Positions 35,928-48,573 of a stretch of 64,000 nt of DNA are shown here, piece by piece. The notes beneath the pieces are model-generated. The model worked only from the letters and a program-made list of their open reading frames with translations. It searched no databases and was not told the DNA's origin. Source of the stretch: Actinomyces sp. oral taxon 414 (GTDB lineage Bacteria; Actinomycetota; Actinomycetes; Actinomycetales; Actinomycetaceae). Each line of letters opens with the position of its first letter. Position 1 is the first letter of the stretch. The DNA lies in assembly GCF_001278845.1 (NCBI RefSeq), contig NZ_CP012590.1:1922001-1986000 (forward strand), written 5' to 3'. The translations under genes and the position numbers were made by a program.

Positions 35928-37109
35928 CTACGCGCTTGCGACGACGGCGGGGCGGGTGCCGGCCAGGGCCTCCTCGCCGAGTTCGGCCGTGAGGGTGTCG
36001 GCCATGTCCTGGGCGTGCCGCAGGAGGGTCTCGACCACCCGAGCCTCGGGGACGGTCTCGACGACCTTGCCGTGCACGAAGATCTGGCCCTTGCCGTTGC
36101 CCGAGGCGCAGCCCAGGTCGGCCTCGCGCGCCTCGCCGGGCCCGTTGACGACGCAGCCCATGACGGCCACGCGCAGAGGCGCCTTGACGTCCTTGAGCCC
36201 CGCCTCGACCTCCTCGGCCAGGGTCCACACGTCCACCTGGGCGCGCCCGCACGACGGGCAGGAGACGATCTCGAGCTTGCGCTCGCGCAGGCCCATGAAC
36301 TCCAGCAGCTTGGTGCCGACCTTGACCTCCTCCACCGGCGGGGCGGACAGGGAGACCCGGATCGTGTCGCCGATGCCCTGGGCGAGCAGCGTGCCGAAGG
36401 CGGCGCAGGACTTGATGGTGCCCTGGAAGGCGGGGCCGGCCTCGGTCACCCCCAGGTGCAGGGGCCAGTCGCCCCTCTCGGACAGCAACTGGTAGGCCTG
36501 GACCATGGTGACCACGTCGTGGTGCTTGACGGAGATCTTGAAGTCGTGGAAGCCGCACTCCTCGAACAGTCCGGCCTCCCACACGGCCGACTCGACCAGC
36601 GCCTCGGGCGTGGCCCGGCCGTACTTCTTGAGCAGGCGCCTGTCGAGGCTGCCGGCGTTGACGCCGATGCGCAGGGAGACGCCGTGGTCGGAGGCCGCCT
36701 TGCAGATCTCGGCGACCTGGTCGTCGAATTTGCGGATATTGCCCGGGTTGACGCGCACCGCCCCGCACCCGGCCTCAATGGCCGCGAAGACGTATTTGGG
36801 ATTGAAGTGGATGTCGGCGATGACCGGGATGCGGGACTGCTTGGCGATGACGGGCAGGGCGGCGGCGTCCTTGTCCGTGGGGCAGGCCACGCGCACAATG
36901 TCGCAGCCGGCTGCCGTCAGTTCGGCGATCTGCTGGAGGGTGGCGCCGATGTCGTGGGTCTTGGTGGTCGTCATGGACTGGACCGTGATCGGTGCATCGC
37001 CGCCCACGTACCGGTCCCCCACCTTGATCTTGCGGGTGGGCCTGCGCGGCGCCAGAACGGGACGCTCCTCGCGAATGGTAGGGATGCCAAGGGCGATCGC
37101 TTGAGTCAC
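35928..37109 (-). CDS. ispG: 4-hydroxy-3-methylbut-2-en-1-yl diphosphate synthase (MEP pathway)
   Basis: [4Fe-4S] enzyme of the MEP route that reduces MEcPP to HMBPP; 393 residues. The cluster ligands are visible in [14 protein letters not shown] ([10 protein letters not shown]) and [15 protein letters not shown], and the N-terminal TIM-barrel part starts at [20 protein letters not shown]. The start is the ATG at 37109. It is divergent from the mevalonate operon, with 293 bases between the two starts. In related genomes rip1 lies directly upstream; here 8.7 kb of other DNA intervenes. Confidence 0.97.
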
Positions 37110-37402
37110 GACGCCCAGTATGGCACCTGGATCCGGGGCCGCGGCCCGGCGAGAACCCTCTCACTCGTGAAAGGCGACACCCGCGCCCGCCCGGGCGGCG
37201 CCACCGGCCGACGCCGCCCGCGCCGTCGATCTGACAGTCGATCTGACAAGGCTTGCGGCTGAGCGGACGGGGTCGATACGCTCTTCCCCGCTCGCCGTCG
37301 ATCCTGAGAGTCGAGGGTCATCAACGGCTTCGCGGAGCAGCATCACACCCCTCAACCCGGCCCGGACCCTCCCGCGCTCTCAGACCACAGGCAAGGAAAA
37401 AC

Positions 37403-38365
37403 ATGGACAGGCACTCCCCCGCTCGCGAGGGGCACGGCCGCACCTGGGCGAAGGCCATCCTCCTGGGCGAGCACTCCGTCGTGTACGGGCACCCCGCCGT
37501 GGCCCTGCCGCTGCACGATCTGCGGATGCGGGCCACGGCCGTCCCCGTCCACGGCCCTTCGAGGCTGCGCAGCCTCGACTACTGCGGCCCCATCGACCGG
37601 GCCGGGCCCCGGTTCGCCTGCATTGTGAAGGCCTTCGAGGTGGCCCGGGAGTTCTCCGGGCGCCTGGACCAGTCCTTCGAGGTCACCACCCGCAGCGACT
37701 TCCCCCACGAGCGCGGACTGGGCTCGTCGGCCGCCGCCGCGGGCGCCATTATCCGCGCCGTCCTGGACGCCTGTCGGCGCGAGGCCACCGCCAGCGAGCT
37801 GTTCGCGCTCACGCAGACGGCCGAGAAGGTCGCCCACGGCAGGCCGTCCGGACTGGATGCGGCCGCGACCTGCTCCCCCTGCCCCATCTGGTTCCAGGGC
37901 GGCCAGATGCGCCCCCTGTCCCAACGCATCGAGGACGCCCGCCTGGTCATCGCCGACTCGGGCGTTCACGGCAGCACCCGCGAGGCCGTCGGCGGCCTGC
38001 GCCGGCGCTACGAGGAGGACACCGGGACCGTCGGCCCGCTCATCGGCGCCCTGGGTGCACTCGCCCGCACGGCGATCGCGGCACTGAACGACGGCGACGC
38101 CCCCGCCCTGGGGGCGGCCATGGACCGGGCGCACGCGGTGCTCGCCGAGCTCGGCCTGAGCCTGCCGGTCCTCGACGATCTCACCGGGGCCGCCCGCCGG
38201 GCCGGGGCGCTGGGAGCCAAGCTCACCGGCGGGGGGCTGGGCGGATGCACGATCGCGCTGGCGGACGGCCCACGGGCCGCCGACCGCATCCGCGCCGCAC
38301 TGGAGCACGCCGGGGCAGCGGCGACGTGGACCTACCGCATGCGCGTCAGCGAGGTGGACGGATGA
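37403..38365 (+). CDS. mvk: mevalonate kinase
   Basis: GHMP kinase that phosphorylates mevalonate at the 5 position; 320 residues. The N-terminal KAILLGEHSVVYGHPAVALP, the phosphate loop ERGLGSSAAAAGAIIRAV and the C-terminal KLTGGGLGGCTIAL are the three GHMP motifs, and the first is diagnostic of mevalonate kinase. The ATG at 37403 is preceded by aagga at good spacing; the upstream in-frame extension looks non-coding. The stop overlaps the decarboxylase start (ATGA), so this is the first gene of a three-gene lower-mevalonate operon. Confidence 0.95.
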   Translation: MDRHSPAREGHGRTWAKAILLGEHSVVYGHPAVALPLHDLRMRATAVPVHGPSRLRSLDYCGPIDRAGPRFACIVKAFEVAREFSGRLDQSFEVTTRSDFPHERGLGSSAAAAGAIIRAVLDACRREATASELFALTQTAEKVAHGRPSGLDAAATCSPCPIWFQGGQMRPLSQRIEDARLVIADSGVHGSTREAVGGLRRRYEEDTGTVGPLIGALGALARTAIAALNDGDAPALGAAMDRAHAVLAELGLSLPVLDDLTGAARRAGALGAKLTGGGLGGCTIALADGPRAADRIRAALEHAGAAATWTYRMRVSEVDG

Positions 38366-39366
38366 CCCCTGCCCCCGCCGCGACGGCCAGCGCCAACACC
38401 AATATCGCCCTTATCAAGTACTGGGGCAAGGCGGACGAGTCGCTGACGATCCCCACCGCCTCGAGCCTGTCCCTCACCCTGGGCGGTACCCGGACCACCA
38501 CCACGGTCTCCTTCGACGATGGCGCCGACGGCGCCGACGCCGTGACTATCAACGGCGCGGCCCCCGGCGGGACGGCCCGGGCCCGGGTGACCCGCTTCCT
38601 CGATCTCGTGCGCGCGCGGGCGGGCCTGACGGCCGCGGCGAGCGTCGTCTCCTCCTCCGTGGTGCCGCTGGCGGCCGGCCTGGCGAGTTCGGCGGCGGGC
38701 TTCGCCGCGCTCGCCGCGGCCGCCTCGCGGGCGGCGGGCATGGACCTGGACGACCGCGCGCTGTCCCGGCTCGCCCGGCGCGGCTCGGGCTCGGCCGCAC
38801 GCTCGGTCTTCGGCGGGCTGGTGCTGTGGAACGCCGGCGTCGATGACGCCACCTCCTACGCCGAGCCCGTCGAGACCGCCGGGGCCGTCGGGGCCGGCCT
38901 GGACCCGGCCATGGTCGTGATTGTGCTCTGCGAGGGACGCAAGACCATCGGCAGCACCGAGGCCATGCGGGCGACCATGCGCACCTCCCCGCTCTACCCC
39001 GCCTGGGTCGAGGCCGGCCGCGAGGACCTGCGCTCGGCGCTGGCGGCGGTGCGCGAGCGCGACCTGCCGCGCCTGGGCGAGGTCGTCGAGGCCAACGCCC
39101 TGGGGATGCACGCCGCCATGATCGCCTCCCGCCCCTCCATTATGTACTGGCTGCCGCGCACGATCGAGGCGCTGCACGCGGTCCGCGCCGTGCGCGAGGA
39201 GGGACTGCCCGCCTGGGCGACCATTGACGCCGGCCCGAACGTGAAGGTCCTGACCCGCGGCGCCGACGCCGACGCCGTCGCCGCCGCCCTGCGCGACCGC
39301 CTCCCCGGCGCGGCGGTGTCGGTCAGACGCCCGGGCGGCGGCGTGCGCATCGAGGACACCCCGTGA
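38362..39366 (+). CDS. mvaD: diphosphomevalonate decarboxylase
   Basis: ATP-dependent decarboxylation of mevalonate 5-diphosphate to isopentenyl diphosphate; 334 residues. Hallmarks: SANTNIALIKYWGKADESL near the N-terminus, PLAAGLASSAAGFAALA as the phosphate loop, RRGSGSAARSVFGG, and WATIDAGPNVKVL at the C-terminus with the conserved aspartate. The ATG overlaps the mevalonate kinase stop and the TGA overlaps the next GTG, so the whole operon is translationally coupled. Confidence 0.96.
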   Translation: MTPAPAATASANTNIALIKYWGKADESLTIPTASSLSLTLGGTRTTTTVSFDDGADGADAVTINGAAPGGTARARVTRFLDLVRARAGLTAAASVVSSSVVPLAAGLASSAAGFAALAAAASRAAGMDLDDRALSRLARRGSGSAARSVFGGLVLWNAGVDDATSYAEPVETAGAVGAGLDPAMVVIVLCEGRKTIGSTEAMRATMRTSPLYPAWVEAGREDLRSALAAVRERDLPRLGEVVEANALGMHAAMIASRPSIMYWLPRTIEALHAVRAVREEGLPAWATIDAGPNVKVLTRGADADAVAAALRDRLPGAAVSVRRPGGGVRIEDTP

Positions 39367-41687
39367 CCCCGCCCGGCCCGGCGGAGCCCGGCGTGACGCG
39401 CAGTACGGCGCTCGGCCCGGCGGAGCCCGACGTGACGCGCAGCGCCCCCGGCAAGCTCTATATCGCCGGCGAGTACGCCGTCGTCGAGCCCGGCCACCGG
39501 GCGGTGCTGGTCGCCGTCGACCGCTTCATCACCGTGCGGGCCTCGCCCGCCGAAGGATCCGGCCGCATCAGCTCCGACCTGTACAGGACCGGCCCCCTGA
39601 CCTGGCGTCGCCGCCCGGAGGACGGGGCGGTGCAGGTGCCGGGGCGGTCGGGCGACTACGTGGTCTCGGCCATCCGCGCCGTCGAGCGGATGGTGCGGGA
39701 GGCTGGCGGGACGCCGCGGTTCTTCGACCTGGACATCTCCAGCGAGCTGGACGGTGCCGGCGGGCGCAAACTCGGCCTGGGCTCCTCCTCGGCGGTGACT
39801 GTGGCCGCGGTGCGGGCCGTGGCGGGCCTCTACGGTCTGCCCCTGGACGACACGGCCGTCTACAAGCTGGCCATGCTGGCCTCCGACGCCGTCCAGCCCA
39901 TCGGGTCCGGGGGCGATATCGCCGCCGCCGCCTTCACCGGCTGGGTCGGCTACGCCTCCCCCGACCGCGCGTGGCTGCGCCGGGCGCGCACCCGCATGAG
40001 CGCGGGCGAACTGGTGCGCGCGGACTGGCCGGGCCTGGTCATCCGCCGCCTGCCCGCCCCGGGGCTGGACCTGCGCGCAGGATGGACCGGCGCCCCCGCC
40101 TCCACCCCGCGCCTGGTGGCGGGCGTCCGGGCCGGCGCGCACGGGGACGACGCCGCCTACGCCGACTTCCTGCGGGGCAGCGAGGCCTGCCTGGACTGCC
40201 TGACGCGGGCGATCGAGGAGGACGACTCCCGGGGGGTCATGGATCTGATCGGGCAGAGCCGCCGGCTCCTGCTGGGCCTGGCCCGCACCAGCGGCATCAC
40301 CATCGAGACCCCCCAGTTGGGCCGACTCGTGGACATCGCCCGGGAGCACGGGGCGGCGGCCAAGAGCTCGGGCGCCGGGGGCGGGGACTGCGGCATCGCC
40401 CTGTGCCCGCCGACCGTGGACGCGCCCGCCATGTGCGCGGCCTGGGAGGCGGCGGGCATCGCGCCCCTGGACCTGGCGGTCCACTCGCGTCCGGAGGGCC
40501 GCCTCATAAACCGGCCCGCCAGCCCCGCGGAGTCGGAGCGCGCCTCCCGCAAGGACGAGCACCTGGAGCTGGCCATGCGCCTGCACGGGACGGACCGGCC
40601 CAACGCCTTCGACGACGTGGCCTTCGTCCACCACGCCCTGCCGGGCACCGGCACCGAGGCGGTCGACACGGGCACGACCGTGTGCGGCGCGCGCTGGCCG
40701 GTCCCCTTCTACATCAACGCGATGACCGGGGGCACGCGGGCCACGGCGGCCGTCAACGCCGACCTGGCCGGGGCGGCCGCCGACGCGGGCGTCGCCATCG
40801 CCTGCGGCTCCCAGCACATCGCCCTGAGGGATCCGGAGCGCGCCGAAGGCTTCCGTGTCATCCGCCGGGAGGCGCCGAACGCCTTCGTCCTGGCCAATGT
40901 GGGACCGACGCTCGCCCCGGAGCAGGCGGTGCGCGCCGTCGAGATGCTCCGGGCCGACGCCCTGCAGATCCACCTCAATGCGGCCCAGGAGCTGGTCATG
41001 CCCGAGGGCGACCGGGACTTCCGCGGCTGGACCGAGCGAATCGCCGCCATCGTCGCGGCCGTGGACGTGCCGGTGGTGGTCAAGGAGGTGGGGTTCGGAC
41101 TCTCGCGCCGCACGATCGCGGAGCTGGAGCGGACCGGCGTCGGGGCCGTCGACGTGGCCGGCGCCGGCGGCACGGACTTCATCGCCATCGAGAACGAGCG
41201 GCGCCCCCGCCGGGACTACTCCTACCTGACCGGCTGGGGCCAGTCGACGGCGCTGTGCCTCCTGGAGGCGCTGGGCGGCGGCGAGCCCGTCGGCCTGCCG
41301 GTGCTCGCCTCGGGGGGCGTGCGCCACCCCCTCGACGTCGTGCGCGCGCTCGCGCTGGGGGCGGATGCGGTCGGCGTCTCGGGGCACTTCCTGCGCACCC
41401 TGGTCGAGACCGGTGCCGACGGGCTGCGGCGCGAGCTGCGCACGTGGACCGACCATGTGCGCACGCTCATGACCCTGCTGGGAGCATCCGACGTCGAGCA
41501 GCTGCGCCGTACGGACGTGCTGGTGACGGGGCGCACCGCCGAGCAGGCGCGTCTGTTCGGCGTGGACCCGGGGCGCCTCGCCCACCGCTCGGCGCGCCGC
41601 ACTTCGATGACACTCGGCGCGACCAGTGCCGATGCCGCCGGCTCGGCACCGCACGCCTGTACCGATGACGCACACACTCACTCGTAA
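39363..41687 (+). CDS. fused phosphomevalonate kinase - type 2 isopentenyl-diphosphate delta-isomerase
   Basis: One open frame of 774 residues contains two complete enzymes. Residues 27 to about 385 are phosphomevalonate kinase: SAPGKLYIAGEYAVVEPG (27-44), KLGLGSSSAV (136-145) and SSGAGGGDCG (335-344). Residues 396 to about 755 are FMN-dependent type 2 IPP isomerase (fni/idi-2): RKDEH (396-400), NAMTGGT (452-458), HLNAAQE (537-543), then DVAGAGGTDFIAIE and ASGGVRHPLDV. The linker is only about ten residues, and no stop, frameshift or internal Shine-Dalgarno separates them. The GTG at 39363 overlaps the decarboxylase stop; in-frame GTGs at 39393 and 39432, in two copies of a 39-bp repeat, are alternatives, and conservation starts just after the last. 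The fusion would couple phosphorylation of mevalonate phosphate with IPP-DMAPP interconversion. Confidence 0.93.
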   Translation: MTPPGPAEPGVTRSTALGPAEPDVTRSAPGKLYIAGEYAVVEPGHRAVLVAVDRFITVRASPAEGSGRISSDLYRTGPLTWRRRPEDGAVQVPGRSGDYVVSAIRAVERMVREAGGTPRFFDLDISSELDGAGGRKLGLGSSSAVTVAAVRAVAGLYGLPLDDTAVYKLAMLASDAVQPIGSGGDIAAAAFTGWVGYASPDRAWLRRARTRMSAGELVRADWPGLVIRRLPAPGLDLRAGWTGAPASTPRLVAGVRAGAHGDDAAYADFLRGSEACLDCLTRAIEEDDSRGVMDLIGQSRRLLLGLARTSGITIETPQLGRLVDIAREHGAAAKSSGAGGGDCGIALCPPTVDAPAMCAAWEAAGIAPLDLAVHSRPEGRLINRPASPAESERASRKDEHLELAMRLHGTDRPNAFDDVAFVHHALPGTGTEAVDTGTTVCGARWPVPFYINAMTGGTRATAAVNADLAGAAADAGVAIACGSQHIALRDPERAEGFRVIRREAPNAFVLANVGPTLAPEQAVRAVEMLRADALQIHLNAAQELVMPEGDRDFRGWTERIAAIVAAVDVPVVVKEVGFGLSRRTIAELERTGVGAVDVAGAGGTDFIAIENERRPRRDYSYLTGWGQSTALCLLEALGGGEPVGLPVLASGGVRHPLDVVRALALGADAVGVSGHFLRTLVETGADGLRRELRTWTDHVRTLMTLLGASDVEQLRRTDVLVTGRTAEQARLFGVDPGRLAHRSARRTSMTLGATSADAAGSAPHACTDDAHTHS
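39374..39442 (+). repeat. in-frame tandem duplication (39-bp period) around the fusion-gene start
   Basis: The 30-base segments 39374-39403 and 39413-39442 are identical except for one base (cggcccggcggagcccg shared, then gcgtg or acgtg). Each copy carries ggcggag followed by a GTG, so the duplication copied a possible ribosome-binding site and start codon. The encoded repeat is GPAEPGVTRS and GPAEPDVTRS. Confidence 0.85.
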
Positions 41688-41744
41688 CCGTCGGTCGCGC
41701 ACTACTGTAGAATCTCGTTGAGGCAGTCCGACGGGAGGACAATC

Positions 41745-41951
41745 ATGCCGACGACGCAGATGGGCGGCCTCGTCCGCACATTCACCGAGGATGAACTCCT
41801 GGAGCGGAGATCAGAGGTCGTCAAGAAGTTGGAGCACCGCTTCGGTAGCCTGGAGCGCGCGCTCGAACGCGAGCAGGATTGGAACTATGACGAGGAGGAG
41901 AGCATGCTCTTCTCTGAATACCATGCCGTCACCTTCCTGCTTTTCAAATGA
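41745..41951 (+). CDS. small acidic protein of unknown function
   Basis: Hypothetical protein of 68 residues (begins MPTTQMGGLVRTFTEDELL). It is charged and mostly helical, with the segment ERRSEVVKKLEHRFGSLERALERE likely a coiled coil. The start is the ATG at 41745 after gggagg; a TTG at 41718 in frame is unlikely. A -10-like tagaat lies at 41708-41713. The stop overlaps the next small gene as ATGA. G+C content is clearly below that of the neighbours. The two-gene layout is like a toxin-antitoxin pair, but no family was recognised. Confidence 0.6.
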   Translation: MPTTQMGGLVRTFTEDELLERRSEVVKKLEHRFGSLERALEREQDWNYDEEESMLFSEYHAVTFLLFK

Positions 41952-42205
41952 TGAGCACATTATCACAGCAGGTCCGAGAGGCTCGCGAATTCGCAGATCA
42001 AACGACCCGAACGATCCGCACCGTGTACGAGTCGGCACCCGACTGCATAGTCGATGAAAGCACCAAAGGAAATGTTTGGAGGGCGATAATCGCACCTCCG
42101 AACAATAAACCCGCACCCTTGACAGTCAACGGCGCACAAGTTCTCAAACTGCCGGTCAACTATGCCGAACATCGTAGCGGACGCTCGTCGCGACGAAGGA
42201 TATAA
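41948..42205 (+). CDS. small protein of unknown function, coupled to the preceding gene
   Basis: Hypothetical protein of 85 residues starting MMSTLSQQVREAREFADQT and translationally coupled to the preceding gene (ATGA). G+C is about half by eye, and the codons used (aaa, aat, gga, ata) are unlike the surrounding genes, which points to acquisition from elsewhere. The last residues (HRSGRSSRRRI) do not look like a natural ending: a second frame opens at 42162 and runs to 42269. The role is unknown. Confidence 0.5.
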   Translation: MMSTLSQQVREAREFADQTTRTIRTVYESAPDCIVDESTKGNVWRAIIAPPNNKPAPLTVNGAQVLKLPVNYAEHRSGRSSRRRI

Positions 42206-42269
42206 GGTCATCTCACCTGCTGATTCCGAATCGACGAACCAGCCACCTCCTTGGATCCACAGTTATTGA
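42162..42269 (+). CDS. 35-residue overlapping frame, possible frameshifted continuation
   Basis: A short frame beginning MPNIVADARRDEGYKVIS and ending PPWIHSY overlaps the end of the previous gene in the +1 frame. It could be the original C-terminus of that protein after a one-base change, or a small separate peptide. No convincing Shine-Dalgarno precedes it. It is reported with low confidence because length alone does not support it. Confidence 0.25.
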   Translation: MPNIVADARRDEGYKVISPADSESTNQPPPWIHSY

Positions 42270-42420
42270 CGCACGCCCCCAAGAACTCGGCCGGTCCAAG
42301 CGGATCGGCGGCGTCACGACAGGTGAGACGCCGTCCCGCCATGCGGAATGATCGACGGGACGGGACCCTCGCGGCGATTGCCCGCGACCTGGCCCCTGTG
42401 CTCGGGAAAGGATGGTTGAG

Positions 42421-42798
42421 ATGAGCACCTACACCGTCACCGTCACCCGCGAAGCGGACGCATGGCTCGCCCAGTGCGACCAGGAGCCCACCGCCCACAC
42501 CTGGGCTCCCACTCTGGTCGCGCTGCGTCACGCGATCATTGACGCCATCATCCTGGCTGCCGATCTGCCCGACGACGCCGTCGTTGATATGCGCCTGACC
42601 GCCGGAGATGATCTGGGGGATGACGTCGTCCGGGCCATCGAACTGGGCAACCGTCGAGCCGACCTGCACGCCGCCCAGGTCGCGCTGCGCGAGGACACCC
42701 TGGCCTCCGTCCGCGATCTCCTCGACGCCGGCTACTCCGTGCGCGACGTCGCCGGCGCAGTCGGTCTTTCTCCCGGACGCGTCACCCAAATCGCCTGA
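42421..42798 (+). CDS. HicB-like protein with C-terminal helix-turn-helix
   Basis: 125-residue protein. The N-terminal half (YTVTVTREADAWLAQCDQEP to AIIDAIILAADLPDD) has the HicB/UPF0150 fold pattern of type II antitoxins, and the C-terminal AGYSVRDVAGAVGLSPGRVTQIA is a helix-turn-helix. HicB proteins bind DNA and neutralise the HicA mRNA nuclease. No HicA was found on either side, so it is an orphan or the toxin gene has been lost. The start at 42421 is chosen over the ATG at 42412 because aaagga is then properly spaced. A 1.2-kb gene-free repeat island follows. Confidence 0.7.
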   Translation: MSTYTVTVTREADAWLAQCDQEPTAHTWAPTLVALRHAIIDAIILAADLPDDAVVDMRLTAGDDLGDDVVRAIELGNRRADLHAAQVALREDTLASVRDLLDAGYSVRDVAGAVGLSPGRVTQIA

Positions 42799-42943
42799 CC
42801 CGCCATGAACGAGACGCGGATCGTTCCGGAAGGTTATTCAGCGGGCGTCTTGGTGCATTTCTGGGAAGCGATATTATGAAGGTTATTCTGGGATCGTCCG
42901 AGTGGTGCTGGTGAGGCTCCTGAGACAACCCGGGGCGGGAACG

Positions 42944-43063
42944 TGTCCAAATCTGCCACAAAGGCGCCCCGCGGCGAGGTCGGCCGCGAATGAAACCGCG
43001 GAATATCAACGATTCTCTTCCGGCGCTCCGGCCCGATCCGGGCCTTTGTGGCAGATTTGGACA
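42944..43063 (+). repeat. 120-bp hairpin element, copy 2
   Basis: Same length and end sequences as copy 1 (tgtccaaatctgccacaaag at the left, its complement at the right) with about a fifth of interior bases changed. It has the same orientation, judged by ggaatatcaac in the middle. The preceding ggttattctggg block is also shared with copy 1. Confidence 0.9.
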
Positions 43064-43373
43064 ACCGGCGCCGCCGCGGGTCCCGTGGGGAGGGCGGTCA
43101 CCCGCCTCGGCGAGGTCCATGATGTCAACACCGGCGCGGACACCGGCGAGGCGGACGGTCGCAGACCGGGCGGACGCCCCGTTCGACCGCGCCGGCCCCG
43201 CCCGAGCGCCGCCGCGGGGCCGGCTCAGGCGCCCCGATCCGCGAGAACGTCACTTAACCGCCGAGAACGTCTGCTAGAGGTACGTTCTCGCGGGTTACCC
43301 GGCGATCTCGCGGGTTACCCGGCGATCTCGCGGACCGCGGCGGCCGCCGCCGCGCCGCCCCCGGCCCGTGAGC

Positions 43374-43431
43374 ACGGGGGTTGACCCATGAGCACGAGGG
43401 TTTAGCACCCGTGCTCACGGGTCAACCCCGT
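43374..43431. repeat. imperfect hairpin, second member of the gggttagcccgtgag family
   Basis: Left arm 43374-43401 and right arm 43407-43431 pair with few mismatches around a loop of about five bases. The arms contain gggggttgacccatgagcac and its complement. It is related to the hairpin at 28584-28650. Confidence 0.8.
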
Positions 43432-43626
43432 CGTCATCGGGCCCTTCTCGTCCGAAGGCGGTGGCCGGGGGTCGGGATCGGCATAATGGCGCGCAAGGGG
43501 CGGCACCCCCGCGGGACCCGTGGGACCCGCGAGACCCGCGGGACCGGCGCCCGCCTGGACGACCCCGTCGGGCCCGCGGGAGCGCCGGCCCATGACGCCC
43601 CGCCCGGGGCCCGCGGTGGCGCCGGT

Positions 43627-43746
43627 TGTCCAAATCTGCCACAAAGACCCCGATCGGGCCGGAGCGCGCGAGAAGAATCGTTGATATTCCGCGCTTCTCC
43701 TCACGGCCGATCCCGGCCCGAAGCGCCTTTGTGGCAGATTTGGACA
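43627..43746 (-). repeat. 120-bp hairpin element, copy 3
   Basis: Reverse-orientation copy (cgttgatattccgcgcttct in the interior). The terminal arms pair with one mismatch (aaagac at the left against gcgcctttg at the right). It faces copy 2 across about 560 bases. Confidence 0.9.
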
Positions 43747-44001
43747 CACCCCCGCCCCGACTCGCCACAGGAGCCCCACCCGCCCCACACAGACACCCCA
43801 GAATAAGCTTCCGGGTGCAGTGGAGGGTCTGAATCCGCGGAAGGATGAGGATTGCGCCCGCGCCACCGCGCCGACCCGAACCACCGCTCCCGACGAGAAA
43901 GACAGTGGCCGGGTCGGGCGATCGTGTTGGCGCCGAGCGCTTCGGCTGGTCCCGGTTGACTCCGGCCGATCCTGGCCGACCCCGGATGGCCCGGGAGGAT
44001 A

Positions 44002-45366
44002 TCAGGCCAGGGAGGCCAGGGCCGTGACGATCCCGGGTGCGGCGTAGAGCGTCATGAATTGCACGCCGTAGGAGACCCCGAGGCGGTTGAACGCCCCGCA
44101 CACCACGCCGACGAGCAGCACCCCGAACATATTCGGGACGCCCGCGTCGATATAGGCCAGCAGCAGGATGAACGCCGCGAACAGCGCCAGCACCGCCTCG
44201 TGGGGAATGCGCCGCATGACGAAATAGGTGATCTGCGAGGACCAGCGGACCGCGATGACGTAGGTGATGGCGACGGAGATCAGCGCGCCCAGGGCGACGA
44301 CTCCGATGAAATCGATCATCTGCAGCTGGTGGTGCAGATTATTGTCCAGGTCGTAGACGGGCGGCGCCTTGAACAGCGGTCCCGCGGGCCCCGCAGAGAC
44401 CCCCGAAACGGGAATTCCCAGCGCCACGAGCGGGATAATGACGCCGGCGAGATACGTCGAGTGCGTCAGCGCGCTCATGACGGTCACGGCGCGCTGGGCG
44501 CGCAGCACGGGATCCTTCTTCTGGCGGGCCGCGGAGGCCTCCCCCAGCAGGAAGGTCAGGCCGACGGGGCTCAGGACGAACAGGGGCGTCGAGACCGCCG
44601 CCATGGCGGCGCTCCACAGGCCCTCGGAGCCGGAGATCAGGCGGGCGGGCACCAGCTCCTGCGAGTCGAATCCGGAGCGCAGGAGCGTCGCCCTCGTGCG
44701 GCTGCCGTGCGGGAGGGCCGCGCGGCGCTTGGCGTTGAGCAGTTCGAGCAGGGTGATGAGCATGGGCCCCACCGTGATCCCCAGGAAGAAGGAGATGTTC
44801 ACGCTGTCGTCCTCGGAGATGACGCCGGTCGAGCGGTAGAGCGCCGGAAGCGCCTGGAACATGAGCGCCAGGGGGATGATCGCCACCAGCGAGAGGATCC
44901 GGTTCTTGCCGAGCAGCGCCAGGAGCACCGCCCCCGCCGCCAGGATGACGGGGGTCTGGGCTTTGATCGGCGCGGCGAAGGGGGCGAGCATTCCCGCCAG
45001 GGCGAAGCTGAGAGGAATGGAGACCAGGGTCCCTATGGCGGAGCCGACCGCCATCTTCCTGATGGTGCTCGAGGCCAGGCCCTTGCCGCGCAGGAGCACG
45101 GAGTGGTCCATGAGCGGGGCCGACATCACCCCGCCCGGAAGGCCCACCAGCGCCGTGGGTATGCCGTTCATGAGATTGAGCGTGACCACCGCCGAGATGA
45201 AGAAGGCGAGCACCACCTGCGGCGGGGCGCCGGCCAGGACGATGGCCAGGGTGACGGGCGCGAGCACGCTCGTCTCGTCGGTGCCGGGGACGAATCCGAT
45301 GAAGGTGTAGAGCACGACGGCGCCGAGCACCGCCGCCAGCATCATGAGAACGAGCTGCGCGGTCAT
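44002..45366 (-). CDS. tripartite tricarboxylate transporter permease TctA-family
   Basis: Large membrane subunit (454 residues, about twelve hydrophobic segments) of a tripartite tricarboxylate-type transporter. The TctA half-repeat features are visible: an N-terminal GFVPGTDETSVLAPVTLA, GIPTALVGLPGGVMSAPLMDHSVLLRGKGLA, and the later matching GIPVSGVSAGPAGPLFKAPPVYD. The family takes up citrate or other carboxylates with a periplasmic TctC binding protein and a small TctB; no TctC is adjacent here. The start overlaps the small membrane protein gene (ATGA), which may stand in for TctB. Confidence 0.85.
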   Translation of the reverse strand: MTAQLVLMMLAAVLGAVVLYTFIGFVPGTDETSVLAPVTLAIVLAGAPPQVVLAFFISAVVTLNLMNGIPTALVGLPGGVMSAPLMDHSVLLRGKGLASSTIRKMAVGSAIGTLVSIPLSFALAGMLAPFAAPIKAQTPVILAAGAVLLALLGKNRILSLVAIIPLALMFQALPALYRSTGVISEDDSVNISFFLGITVGPMLITLLELLNAKRRAALPHGSRTRATLLRSGFDSQELVPARLISGSEGLWSAAMAAVSTPLFVLSPVGLTFLLGEASAARQKKDPVLRAQRAVTVMSALTHSTYLAGVIIPLVALGIPVSGVSAGPAGPLFKAPPVYDLDNNLHHQLQMIDFIGVVALGALISVAITYVIAVRWSSQITYFVMRRIPHEAVLALFAAFILLLAYIDAGVPNMFGVLLVGVVCGAFNRLGVSYGVQFMTLYAAPGIVTALASLA

Positions 45367-45716
45367 TCGTCGTCACCGCCTCCGCTGACTCCGATGGGAG
45401 CCGCATCGTCGACGTCGACAATATCCGCGTCATCGGCGCCATTCGCAACGTCGGCGCCATCCGCGTCGTCGACGATGACGACCTCCCGCTTGGGGGTCAC
45501 AAGAAGACAATTCACAATGAAACCGGCGGCCGACGCCCCCAGCCCCCAGAAAAGCGCCTCCCCGCCGACACGGGCGGAGACGAGCACCGCCGCGGCGGCG
45601 CAGGCCACAGATATCAGCAGGCAGATCACCAGGTCCCGGGGCGAGACGAGGTCATTCCAGACCTCGATATTCTGACGCCCCGTGCCCTCGGAACCGGATT
45701 CGGGAATATCGCGCAC
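45363..45716 (-). CDS. small two-helix membrane protein, possible TctB-like partner
   Basis: 117-residue protein with two hydrophobic segments (about 31-48 and 54-72) and an acidic tail of Asp/Ala/Gly repeats (DDADGADVANGADDADIVDV). It overlaps the start of the TctA-family permease gene by four bases, so they are co-translated. TctB proteins have four helices, so the match is positional rather than structural. The aspartate repeats are encoded by direct repeats and may be variable. Confidence 0.6.
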   Translation of the reverse strand: MRDIPESGSEGTGRQNIEVWNDLVSPRDLVICLLISVACAAAAVLVSARVGGEALFWGLGASAAGFIVNCLLVTPKREVVIVDDADGADVANGADDADIVDVDDAAPIGVSGGGDDE

Positions 45717-45793
45717 GGTCGCCGATGGTATGTCAATCCCCTCGGGCGCACTATATGTCGTTGGTCATGACCGGGCGGGCGCCCGTCCGGCAC

Positions 45794-47107
45794 TCACAGC
45801 GGCGCCACGACGTCGACCCACACGAGCACCAGGGTCATAATGATGAGCAGGACGAAGACGACCTGACCCACTGGCAGCATGCGCGCGGTATCGACGTAGC
45901 CGGGGTCGGGACGGCCGCGCCGACGCGCGATCCGCCGTCGGGCCCCCTCCCACAGGGCCCCGGCGACGTGCCCGCCGTCCAGAGGCAGCAGGGGGATGAG
46001 GTTGAAGGCGAACAGTGCCAGGTTGAGCGAACCCAGGAGGCTGAGCATGGAGAACAGGCGCGCGCTGAAGGGCACGGTGCCCGAGCCCGCGCCCGCGCTG
46101 GAGACCTCGCCCGCGATCCTGCCCACGCCGACCAGGCTGACGAGCCCCTCCGGGTTGCGCTTCTCCACCCCCAGCCCGGCGGCGACGGAGTGGTAGAGCC
46201 CGACGGGCAGAGTCACGATAGCCCTGAGGGTCTGTCCGACGGCGGTGCCCACGACCGCGGGGATCTGGCTCGGAGGAGTGCGCTGAGCGCCCAGGGCCGG
46301 CCCGATGCCCACGTAGGGGCGCTGCTCGGTGAGCGGCGCGCCGTCGGCCCCGGTGACGACGCCGCCGTCGGCGTCGTAGACCGTGCGGGTCACCTCGACG
46401 GCGGTGACCGTCAGGGTCAGCTCCTGCCCGTCGCGCTCGACGACGACGGAGGCCGGGGCGGTCCCCGAGGCGCGAATGGCCCCCTGGACCTGCGCCCACG
46501 TGGTGGTGGGGGTCCCGTTCCAGGAGCGGATCTCGTCGCCGACCCTCAGGCCCGCGGCGGCGGCCGGCGAGGGGGCGTCCGCATCGGTGCAGGCGCTGGC
46601 GGCGTCGACGTCGGCGGGCACGCAGGCGGCGACGGAGGCCAGCGTGGAGGTGTAGGCGCTCTGCCCGACGACGCCCAGGGCGAGGGCGAGCAGAATAATG
46701 CCCAGCGCCAGGTTGGTCAGGATCCCCCCGGCCATGACGACCAGCTTCTTGGGCACGCTCAGCCGGTAGAAGGCGCGGTGCTGCTCGTCAGGCCCGAGCT
46801 CGGCCAGGGACTCGGCGCGGGCGTCGGCCACCATGGAGTCGGGCTTGTCGACGCGCCCGGGCTTGGCCGGGGGCACCATGCCCAGGAGCTTGACGTAGCC
46901 GCCCAGCCAGATCGCCTTGACGCCGTATTCGGTCTCGCCGCGCTTGACGGACCAGAGTCTGGGCCCGAAGCCGATGAAGTACTCCGGAACCTTCACCCCG
47001 AAGCGCTTGGCCGGGATCATGTGCCCCAGTTCGTGGAGGGCGACCGACAGGCCGATCCCGATAATGAGAACGACGATGCCGAGGACGTAGGCGACGGTCT
47101 GGCTCAC
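45794..47107 (-). CDS. rip1: site-2 intramembrane zinc protease Rip1/RseP family
   Basis: M50 intramembrane protease that cleaves anti-sigma factors within the membrane; 437 residues. The zinc motif HELGH is at residues 25-29 in the first membrane helix, a PDZ domain follows (about 180-260, RVGDEIRSWNGTPTTTW), and the second metal-site motif LPLDGGH is near residue 385. It lies 74 bases after dxr, exactly as in mycobacteria, where Rip1 controls envelope stress responses. ispG, which should follow, is displaced by 8.7 kb. Confidence 0.93.
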   Translation of the reverse strand: MSQTVAYVLGIVVLIIGIGLSVALHELGHMIPAKRFGVKVPEYFIGFGPRLWSVKRGETEYGVKAIWLGGYVKLLGMVPPAKPGRVDKPDSMVADARAESLAELGPDEQHRAFYRLSVPKKLVVMAGGILTNLALGIILLALALGVVGQSAYTSTLASVAACVPADVDAASACTDADAPSPAAAAGLRVGDEIRSWNGTPTTTWAQVQGAIRASGTAPASVVVERDGQELTLTVTAVEVTRTVYDADGGVVTGADGAPLTEQRPYVGIGPALGAQRTPPSQIPAVVGTAVGQTLRAIVTLPVGLYHSVAAGLGVEKRNPEGLVSLVGVGRIAGEVSSAGAGSGTVPFSARLFSMLSLLGSLNLALFAFNLIPLLPLDGGHVAGALWEGARRRIARRRGRPDPGYVDTARMLPVGQVVFVLLIIMTLVLVWVDVVAPL

Positions 47108-47181
47108 GAAACGGCCTCCCTGGGATTGTGTGCGGCGGCGGTGGATCGGCGCGGTGGATCGGCGCAGGGGACCAGTGTGCC

Positions 47182-48573
47182 CTACCGCGGGCCTCCGGCG
47201 GCAGCGGCAATGATCTCATCGGCGCGGGCACGGGCCCAGGCCTCGGCGGCCAGGACGTCGTCGAGACCGGGGGGCGGATCGTCTCCCCGCGCGGTGTGCT
47301 CGGCGAGGACGGCGGCGTCGACCTCGACAATGCCCGCCCAGTCGAGGCGGCCGGCCAGGAAGGCGCCGACGGCCTGCTCGTTGGCGGCGTTGAGGACGGC
47401 CGGGTGGGTGGCGGAGGCGGCCACGGCCGAGCGGGCCAGATCGACCGCGGGGAAGGTCCGCGCGTCCAGCGGCTCGAAATCCCAGGAGACGGGCGCGGCC
47501 CAGGTGTTGGGGGTCACGAGGCCGGACAGGTCCGCTCGGGCGGGCCAGGTCAGGCCCAGGGCGATGGGCAGGCGCATATCGGGCGGGGAGGCCTGGGCCA
47601 GGGTGGCGCCGTCAATGAATTCGACCATGGAGTGAATGACGGACTGCGGGTGGACGACGACGACGATGTCGGCCGGATCGATGTCGAAGAGCAGGTGCGC
47701 CTCGATGAGTTCCAGCCCCTTGTTGATCAGGGTCGAGGAGTTGACCGTGACGACCGGGCCCATGGCCCAGGTGGGGTGGGCCAGGGCCTGCGCGGCGGTC
47801 ACGCCGGTCAGTTCGGCCCGGCTGCGGCCGCGGAAGGGCCCGCCCGAGGCGGTGAGGATGAGGCGGCGCACCTCGGTGCGCCCGGTCTGGACGGAGCTGG
47901 TCAGTCCCTTCTCGTGGACGCCCGAGCGCAGCGCCTGGGCGATGGCCGAGTGCTCGGAGTCCACGGGCACGACCTGCCCGGGGCGCACCAGGGCCCGCCG
48001 GACCAGGGCCCCGCCCACCACGAGGGACTCCTTGTTGGCCAGGGCGAGGGTGGCGCCGCCGGCGAGGGCCGCCAGGGTGGGCCGCAGCCCCACGGAGCCG
48101 GTAATGCCGTTGAGGACCGTGTCCCCCGGCCCGACCCCGGCGGCCTCGACGACGTCGGCGGCCGCGGTGGGGCCGGTGAGGATCCGCCGGACGGGGTCGG
48201 GACGCCCGAGGCGCTCGGCCGCCTCGGCCAGGTGGGCGCGCAGGCGGGAGGCGGCGTCGTCGGAGGCGCTGACGGCCAACAGCGGCACCTCGTGGCGCAC
48301 GGCCTGCTCGGCGAGCTCGGCCAGTCTGGAGCCGCCGGCGGCCAGGGCCGCGACGCGCGGGGCGCTCACGCCCTCGGGCCGACCGGCGGCCAGGCGCCCG
48401 ACGACGTCGAGGGTCTGGACGCCAATGGAGCCGGTGGAGCCGAGCAGGACGAGGCGCGGGTCCGCGGAGGCCGGGGCGGGGTCGGGACCGGTCGGGGCGG
48501 GGGCGGCCGGGGCCGGACCGGCGGGGACGGGATTGAACGGAACGGGATCGGCGGGGGGATTCGACTGCGTCAT
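47182..48573 (-). CDS. dxr: 1-deoxy-D-xylulose 5-phosphate reductoisomerase (MEP pathway)
   Basis: NADPH-dependent conversion of DXP to MEP, the committed step of the MEP route and the fosmidomycin target. 463 residues; a Pro/Ala-rich N-terminal 35 residues are extra. Signatures: VLLGSTGSIGVQTLDVV (NADPH site), ANKESLVVGG, the metal/substrate motif VDSEHSAI, ASGGPFRG and HPTWAMGPVVTVNSSTLINKG (in part). With ispG in the same window this shows a working MEP route is likely. It is downstream of the DivIVA-domain gene on the same strand. Confidence 0.97.
   Translation of the reverse strand: MTQSNPPADPVPFNPVPAGPAPAAPAPTGPDPAPASADPRLVLLGSTGSIGVQTLDVVGRLAAGRPEGVSAPRVAALAAGGSRLAELAEQAVRHEVPLLAVSASDDAASRLRAHLAEAAERLGRPDPVRRILTGPTAAADVVEAAGVGPGDTVLNGITGSVGLRPTLAALAGGATLALANKESLVVGGALVRRALVRPGQVVPVDSEHSAIAQALRSGVHEKGLTSSVQTGRTEVRRLILTASGGPFRGRSRAELTGVTAAQALAHPTWAMGPVVTVNSSTLINKGLELIEAHLLFDIDPADIVVVVHPQSVIHSMVEFIDGATLAQASPPDMRLPIALGLTWPARADLSGLVTPNTWAAPVSWDFEPLDARTFPAVDLARSAVAASATHPAVLNAANEQAVGAFLAGRLDWAGIVEVDAAVLAEHTARGDDPPPGLDDVLAAEAWARARADEIIAAAAGGPR

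Follow-up and report, generated by a model that had tools for sequence, protein, structure and literature searches.

Pseudomonas mevalonii is an example of mevalonate degradation, with a degradative 3-hydroxy-3-methylglutaryl-CoA (HMG-CoA) reductase (HMGR) and an HMG-CoA lyase. Binding proteins of the tripartite ATP-independent periplasmic (TRAP) type have been crystallized with mevalonate, and a transporter family other than the one described below may thus also carry this compound. Bacteria with both the mevalonate and the 2-C-methyl-D-erythritol 4-phosphate (MEP) pathway have been reviewed (PMC13001223). A 2025 paper states that bacterial mevalonate import systems exist, and that the only importer known before was a mutant of the mammalian MCT1 (PMC12405511). 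Here we describe a gene of Actinomyces sp. oral taxon 414 in which phosphomevalonate kinase (PMK) is joined to type 2 isopentenyl diphosphate (IPP) isomerase (FNI), together with the gene cluster around it, in a stretch of 64,000 nucleotides (contig NZ_CP012590.1, positions 1,922,001 to 1,986,000), hereafter called the window. In the main text of the review, neither Actinomyces nor Bifidobacter- nor fused occurs, and the single "fusion" there refers to IspDF, a bifunctional enzyme that likewise fuses non-consecutive isoprenoid steps, but belongs to the MEP pathway and consists of other enzymes (PMC13001223).

The fused gene lies in a cluster that holds only the lower part of the mevalonate pathway, beside a permease of the TctA type, and this cluster likely serves to salvage mevalonate. 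The permease would import mevalonate, and the four enzyme activities of the cluster would turn it into IPP and dimethylallyl diphosphate (DMAPP). The fused enzyme would perform the second step and the final isomerization, with a separate decarboxylase acting in between. In the window species, which has MEP genes, the MEP pathway would still supply isoprenoids, and salvage would be a supplement. The transported substrate, the direction of transport and the activity of both domains of the fusion are what we infer from sequence and gene neighborhoods. The fused gene has the following parts:

39363..41687, plus strand: PMK-FNI fusion gene, 774 residues; its GTG start overlaps the stop of the preceding gene (GTGA)
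39435..40484, plus strand: PMK domain, residues 25-374 (TIGR01220)
40485..40547, plus strand: linker between the two profile matches, with a low-confidence core at residues 377-391
40493..40498, plus strand: GGAGGG, Shine-Dalgarno-like, 7 nucleotides upstream of the former isomerase start
40506..40508, plus strand: ATA, where Actinomyces dentalis has the isomerase start codon ATG
40548..41528, plus strand: FNI domain, residues 396-722 (TIGR02151), starting at the RKDEH motif

The first-pass annotation had proposed a full kinase and a full isomerase domain in one continuous frame, and this was confirmed: the stop-free frame at 39363-41687 (plus strand) spans 774 residues with both complete domains inside, and in the NCBIfam profile search the PMK domain scored 366.9 bits (cut-off 165.7) and the FNI domain 372.4 bits (cut-off 281.3). 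The frame thus encodes PMK joined to FNI, and both activities are predicted. By sequence, the PDB entries 3k17 and 1k47 correspond to the N-terminal half and 1p0k to the C-terminal half. An AlphaFold model of the fusion based on 29 sequences exhibited two confident domains (mean pLDDT 82.1, pTM 0.52), which Foldseek matched to 3k17 (TM by target 0.93) and 1p0k (0.95). Values of pLDDT below 50 were confined to residues 1-20, 377-391 and 744-774, and the low confidence at 377-391 suggests a flexible linker of about 15 residues; the joint is short, as first proposed, albeit somewhat longer than the ten residues suggested. The GLGSS and KSSGAGGGD columns of the kinase, which we take to be the glycine-rich motifs of the GHMP family, are invariant or nearly so across 29 fused proteins including that of the window, and the window's motif residues are also present in the unfused kinase of A. 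dentalis. The residues RK..H, HLN..QE and MPEG, presumably motifs of type 2 IPP isomerase, are common to the window protein and 1p0k and form invariant columns among the fused proteins. One sequence is repeated almost exactly in the N-terminal extension (window positions 39363-39440), as GPAEPGVTRS / GPAEPDVTRS, which leaves either the GTG at 39363 or a later GTG as the possible true start.

A physical coupling of the two enzymes had also been suggested, for which we find no basis: nothing shows coupling or channeling, the two steps are non-consecutive, and the pTM of 0.52 leaves the domains unfixed relative to each other. The 1:1 ratio of the two activities is fixed only if no isomerase is produced from an internal start. 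The closest unfused relative is informative here. In A. dentalis (locus L026; letters G, L and P followed by numbers denote our genomes, loci and proteins), with 84% identity to the window in the PMK and 92% in the FNI domain, the PMK stop and the FNI start share an ATGA, each gene being read in its own frame. Upstream of this junction the window carries one additional base, and it has ATA in place of ATG. It is conceivable, though we consider it rather unlikely, that a free isomerase is made beside the fusion, from ATA 40506, GTG 40416 or ATG 40431, a situation compatible with the salvage explanation. The GGAGGG sequence is retained 7 nucleotides before ATA 40506, and the GTG and the ATG lie within the kinase and might, in theory, serve as starts for an isomerase on its own. 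On the other hand, ATA is a poor start codon, and no in-frame ATG, GTG or TTG occurs in the window from 40434 to the RKDEH motif.

The neighbors of the fused gene are:

37403..38365, plus strand: mevalonate kinase (MVK; TIGR00549), start as given by the gene call
38362..39366, plus strand: diphosphomevalonate decarboxylase (MVD; TIGR01240), ATGA overlap with MVK
44002..45366, minus strand: TctA-family permease (PF01970), predicted mevalonate importer
45363..45716, minus strand: small membrane protein with two helices where TctB would be expected, without Pfam match, ATGA overlap with TctA
35928..37109, minus strand: IspG (MEP pathway)
47182..48573, minus strand: Dxr (MEP pathway)

Four-base overlaps chain MVK to MVD and MVD to the fusion, and all four lower-pathway activities of the window are encoded in open frames with scores above the family cut-offs. 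The mevalonate and TctA genes sit between the MEP genes ispG and dxr (35928-48573), likewise in A. dentalis. In contrast to the lower pathway, neither HMGR (PF00368) nor HMG-CoA synthase (HMGS; PF08540) gave a match in the window genome (one contig, completeness 100), while control genomes were matched with both. The window genome thus does not hold a complete mevalonate pathway, as judged from these profiles, since HMG-CoA synthase and reductase are missing. The permease scored 94.2 bits with PF01970 (cut-off 28.9), a family that the cluster has in common with the TctABC transporters. The usual TctB has four helices, whereas the partner in the window is a protein of 117 residues with two helices (simple hydropathy scan) and without Pfam match, and does not qualify as TctB. 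The cluster also differs from TctABC in that the genus lacks TctC and in the predicted substrate, mevalonate.

We surveyed 49 genomes of the genus for these genes, taking IspG to indicate the MEP pathway. PMK and FNI are present together in 24 genomes (G003 and G018, with weak, partial matches, are left out of this count), and TctA (E up to 1e-20) occurs in the same 24 and in none else, each time separated from the PMK/FNI match by 96-2387 bases. HMGR exceeds the cut-off in four of the 49 genomes, while G016 has a single weak match that falls short of it, and HMGS is found in six, namely the four with HMGR plus G008 and G044; the latter two have their synthase match in genomes without PMK, FNI or HMGR. 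IspG is present in 45 genomes and missing in exactly the four with HMGR. The genus is thereby split into 25 genomes with MEP and without PMK plus FNI, 20 with MEP, the lower mevalonate genes and TctA, and no upper pathway, and four with HMGR, HMGS, the lower genes and TctA, and without IspG. In the stretches read from three of the latter four (L145-L147), thiolase, HMGR and HMGS adjoin TctA. In the same three loci Dxr and IspG were not found in the RseP/GNAT neighborhood, which is their place in the window, and the mevalonate cluster adjoins GNAT instead. In G013 (L147:4252-6837, minus strand) HMGR and thiolase form one frame of 861 residues, corresponding to two overlapping genes in L145 and L146; by its reading frame, it is a second instance in this cluster of overlapping genes that have become fused.

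We extended the survey to 78 further genomes of the family and order with a PMK or FNI match, of which 72 contain HMGR and six (G058, G167, G176, G214, G480 and G542) do not (E up to 1e-10). A TctA with 58-75% identity adjoins the operon in six (G058, G167, G176, G416, G481 and G499). The order small protein, TctA, MVK, MVD, PMK, FNI is found in L139, L140 and L141; TctA and MVK overlap by GTGA as the genes are called in L139 and L141, and L140 has the same GTGA with MVK called a few bases later. In G176 neither IspG nor HMGR was found, while all four lower genes and TctA are present. This genome is predicted to need mevalonate, and salvage would be its only source of isoprenoids. Separately, G214 and G542 (L149 and L150), from one family that falls with Bifidobacterium in the PMK-FNI tree described below, have PMK and FNI and no match for HMGR, IspG or TctA, and are possible mevalonate auxotrophs with another importer.

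A second context for the permease is mevalonate degradation. More distant TctA relatives (34-39% identity) were found in 17 of 80 family and order genomes and, at E up to 1e-60, in 8 of 393 other genomes of the class, and in 22 of these 25 an HMGR lies on the same strand within 2.1 kb of TctA. Seven HMGRs of the class set pass TIGR00532, the model for the degradative enzyme, as does that of L137 (405.5 bits), and the HMGRs of L135, L136 and L148 resemble the latter at 56-70%; the remaining 11 of the 22 are assigned by PF00368 only, so that the TctA-adjoining HMGR is of the degradative type wherever it could be typed. All four such loci read (L135, L136, L137 and L148) have an HMG-CoA lyase placed between HMGR and TctA, while in L138 neither lyase nor HMGR was found. 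A search of 72,556 plasmid records with the window TctA (E up to 10) matched six relatives, and a Roseomonas TctA as query returned the same six. All six plasmid TctA genes follow an HMGR, annotated as degradative in four cases and resembling the Roseomonas HMGR at 53% in the other two (Burkholderia, unannotated), and a lyase lies within 5 kb in four of the six loci. These degradation clusters, with degradative HMGR and HMG-CoA lyase, hold a related TctA and a small partner, as in the window; they would break mevalonate down, whereas the window cluster would phosphorylate it toward isoprenoid precursors. The small protein before TctA is common to both groups, with two helices in seven examples (simple hydropathy scan). 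Among the names listed, close relatives of TctA are called only tripartite tricarboxylate transporter permease or hypothetical protein, and among the papers listed by a search of one literature library, none linked TctA or a tripartite transporter to mevalonate.

Degradative HMGR and mevalonate kinase share the substrate mevalonate, and the permease accompanies either enzyme; it is therefore best explained as a mevalonate carrier. With the upper pathway missing, import is the sensible direction. On balance we favor a wider proposal, with somewhat less confidence than salvage in the window itself: TctA and its small two-helix partner, without a binding protein, would constitute a bacterial mevalonate importer that serves two fates, salvage in Actinomyces and kin and degradation in other actinobacteria, alphaproteobacteria and Burkholderia, with the importer as the sole isoprenoid source in G176 (apparently Schaalia vaccimaxillae) and two of the salvage enzymes fused in the window species.

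Several observations weigh against salvage and the wider proposal. The two groups of TctA are only 34-39% identical, and long branches separate them in a tree of 32 TctA proteins; it is search results that bear on whether TctA proteins with other substrates fall outside the pair. The distant relatives in G425, G480 and G918 do not adjoin HMGR, and TIGR00532 is not fully specific, as it exceeds its cut-off in one of 14 control genomes. None of the 49 genus genomes has a match to TctC (PF03401), a profile that does match 5 of 14 control genomes. Of the 30 genomes in which TctA is linked, 23 lack HMGR, compared with 3 of the 72 in which it is not (Fisher p 1e-13, in a test that ignores kinship), and with only 3-4 independent pairs on the tree a kinship-corrected test says nothing. 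HMGR is present in the other 7 of the 30 (G013, G028, G029, G038, G416, G481 and G499), and the HMGR-less G214, G480 and G542 have no linked TctA. Finally, the PMK domain evolves fast, with a ratio of nonsynonymous to synonymous substitution rates (dN/dS) between the window and A. dentalis of 0.69, against 0.11-0.35 in six other genes (FNI 0.27, MVK 0.35, MVD 0.29, TctA 0.13, IspG 0.11 and RseP 0.25), albeit with its glycine-rich motifs retained.

The fast kinase and the seven genomes with HMGR, along with the fact that upper genes were not found in 20 of the 24 genus genomes, would also suit a different history, in which the operon is what is left, now in decay, of a once complete mevalonate pathway and TctA carries an unrelated acid, for instance citrate, and is kept by linkage. 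We regard this as improbable, since the four lower activities of the window are open and above their family cut-offs, the dN/dS of FNI, MVK and MVD (0.27-0.35) and of TctA (0.13) speaks against decay, TctA stands directly before MVK or overlaps it in L139-L141, and HMGR adjoins the distant TctA relatives. Still less probable is a transporter that exports mevalonate or moves another acid of the pathway, such as 3-hydroxy-3-methylglutarate, with mevalonate made by unrecognized enzymes. Sequence does not reveal the direction of transport, and HMGR, HMGS and TctA occur together in four genus genomes; in the degradative clusters, on the other hand, the first enzyme would consume mevalonate, which makes import the sensible direction, and in the 20 genus genomes with the operon and no upper pathway neither an HMGR over the cut-off nor HMGS was found.

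Returning to the fused gene of the salvage cluster, the pair is a real but not a unique one. At E up to 0.001, a protein search gave 511 scored matches, and of the best 120, which were listed, 118 carry both domains in one chain (P0006 among them looks artifactual). Those with names are mostly from Bifidobacterium and Gardnerella, together with Sporolactobacillus vineae, an Actinosynnema and a few others among the matches listed, and the JGI annotation names P0033 and P0042 as both enzymes. The expectation that the two genes are normally separate holds for genomes, as 23 of the 24 genus genomes with both (all except that of the window) and 74 of the best 80 named loci out of 545 have them unfused, with the six fused loci all from Bifidobacteriaceae; Actinomyces oris likewise has PMK and FNI apart. 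It does not hold for protein databases, where fusions of the pair are already present. In the same literature library, a search judged by titles and the beginnings of abstracts listed no report of a PMK-FNI fusion. Three apparent fusions were discarded: in G041 and G002, with one match each, a stop lies between the genes, and in P0006 the end of PMK is frameshifted.

In a quick PMK-FNI tree (76 rows chosen from 269, 696 columns, SH-aLRT support only, with an odd letter make-up in 26 rows and one row on a long branch), the fused state requires at least six changes, every one forced by starred branches: in the window with P0002, in Bifidobacterium, in the Gardnerella, Sporolactobacillus and Actinosynnema groups, and in the unfused G214 within Bifidobacterium. 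A single inherited fusion is therefore rejected on this tree. The window and P0002 group with A. dentalis, which is unfused (100*), and lie within a starred set of 16 rows; apart from the window and P0002, all members of this set (14 rows) are unfused. As far as this tree goes, it shows that the fusion arose several separate times and that the fusion of the window is separate and recent. The fusions of Bifidobacterium and Gardnerella agree with it in the two domains, their order and the single chain, but are of separate origin, the window fusion being nested among unfused Actinomyces. In the same tree L067, a contig filed as a Bifidobacteriaceae metagenome-assembled genome, groups with Lactobacillus kullabergensis and is perhaps misbinned.

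A. dentalis, with the same operon order and neighbors and the two reading frames in place of one, suggests how the window fusion came about. The ancestor would have had, like present A. dentalis, the PMK stop and the FNI start overlapping as ATGA in different frames. One added base upstream would then have shifted PMK into the frame of FNI, and the start codon would have become ATA, in either order. A fixed 1:1 ratio would thereby have replaced translational coupling; channeling is not claimed. The metagenomic protein P0002, with 96% identity to the window and from an ENA cluster with 95 member sequences, has the same junction with a linker 24 residues longer, so that the fusion, on these sequences, exists in at least two variants. 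An error of sequencing or assembly that joined two separate genes, as the single inserted base at the frame change and the frameshifted pseudo-fusion P0006 might suggest, is very improbable, given that P0002 is fused in the same way but has a linker of different length, and given the second change, from ATG to ATA, beside the inserted base.

The window fusion is a clear case of overlapping operon genes turning into one protein, and the tree indicates that this pair has been joined several times. The neighborhoods of the permease point to one family as a candidate bacterial importer of mevalonate that can be tested directly, which would also be a transporter candidate for metabolic engineers. 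If this is true, some relatives of Actinomyces would be mevalonate auxotrophs, and oral Actinomyces could take isoprenoid precursors from neighbors or host.

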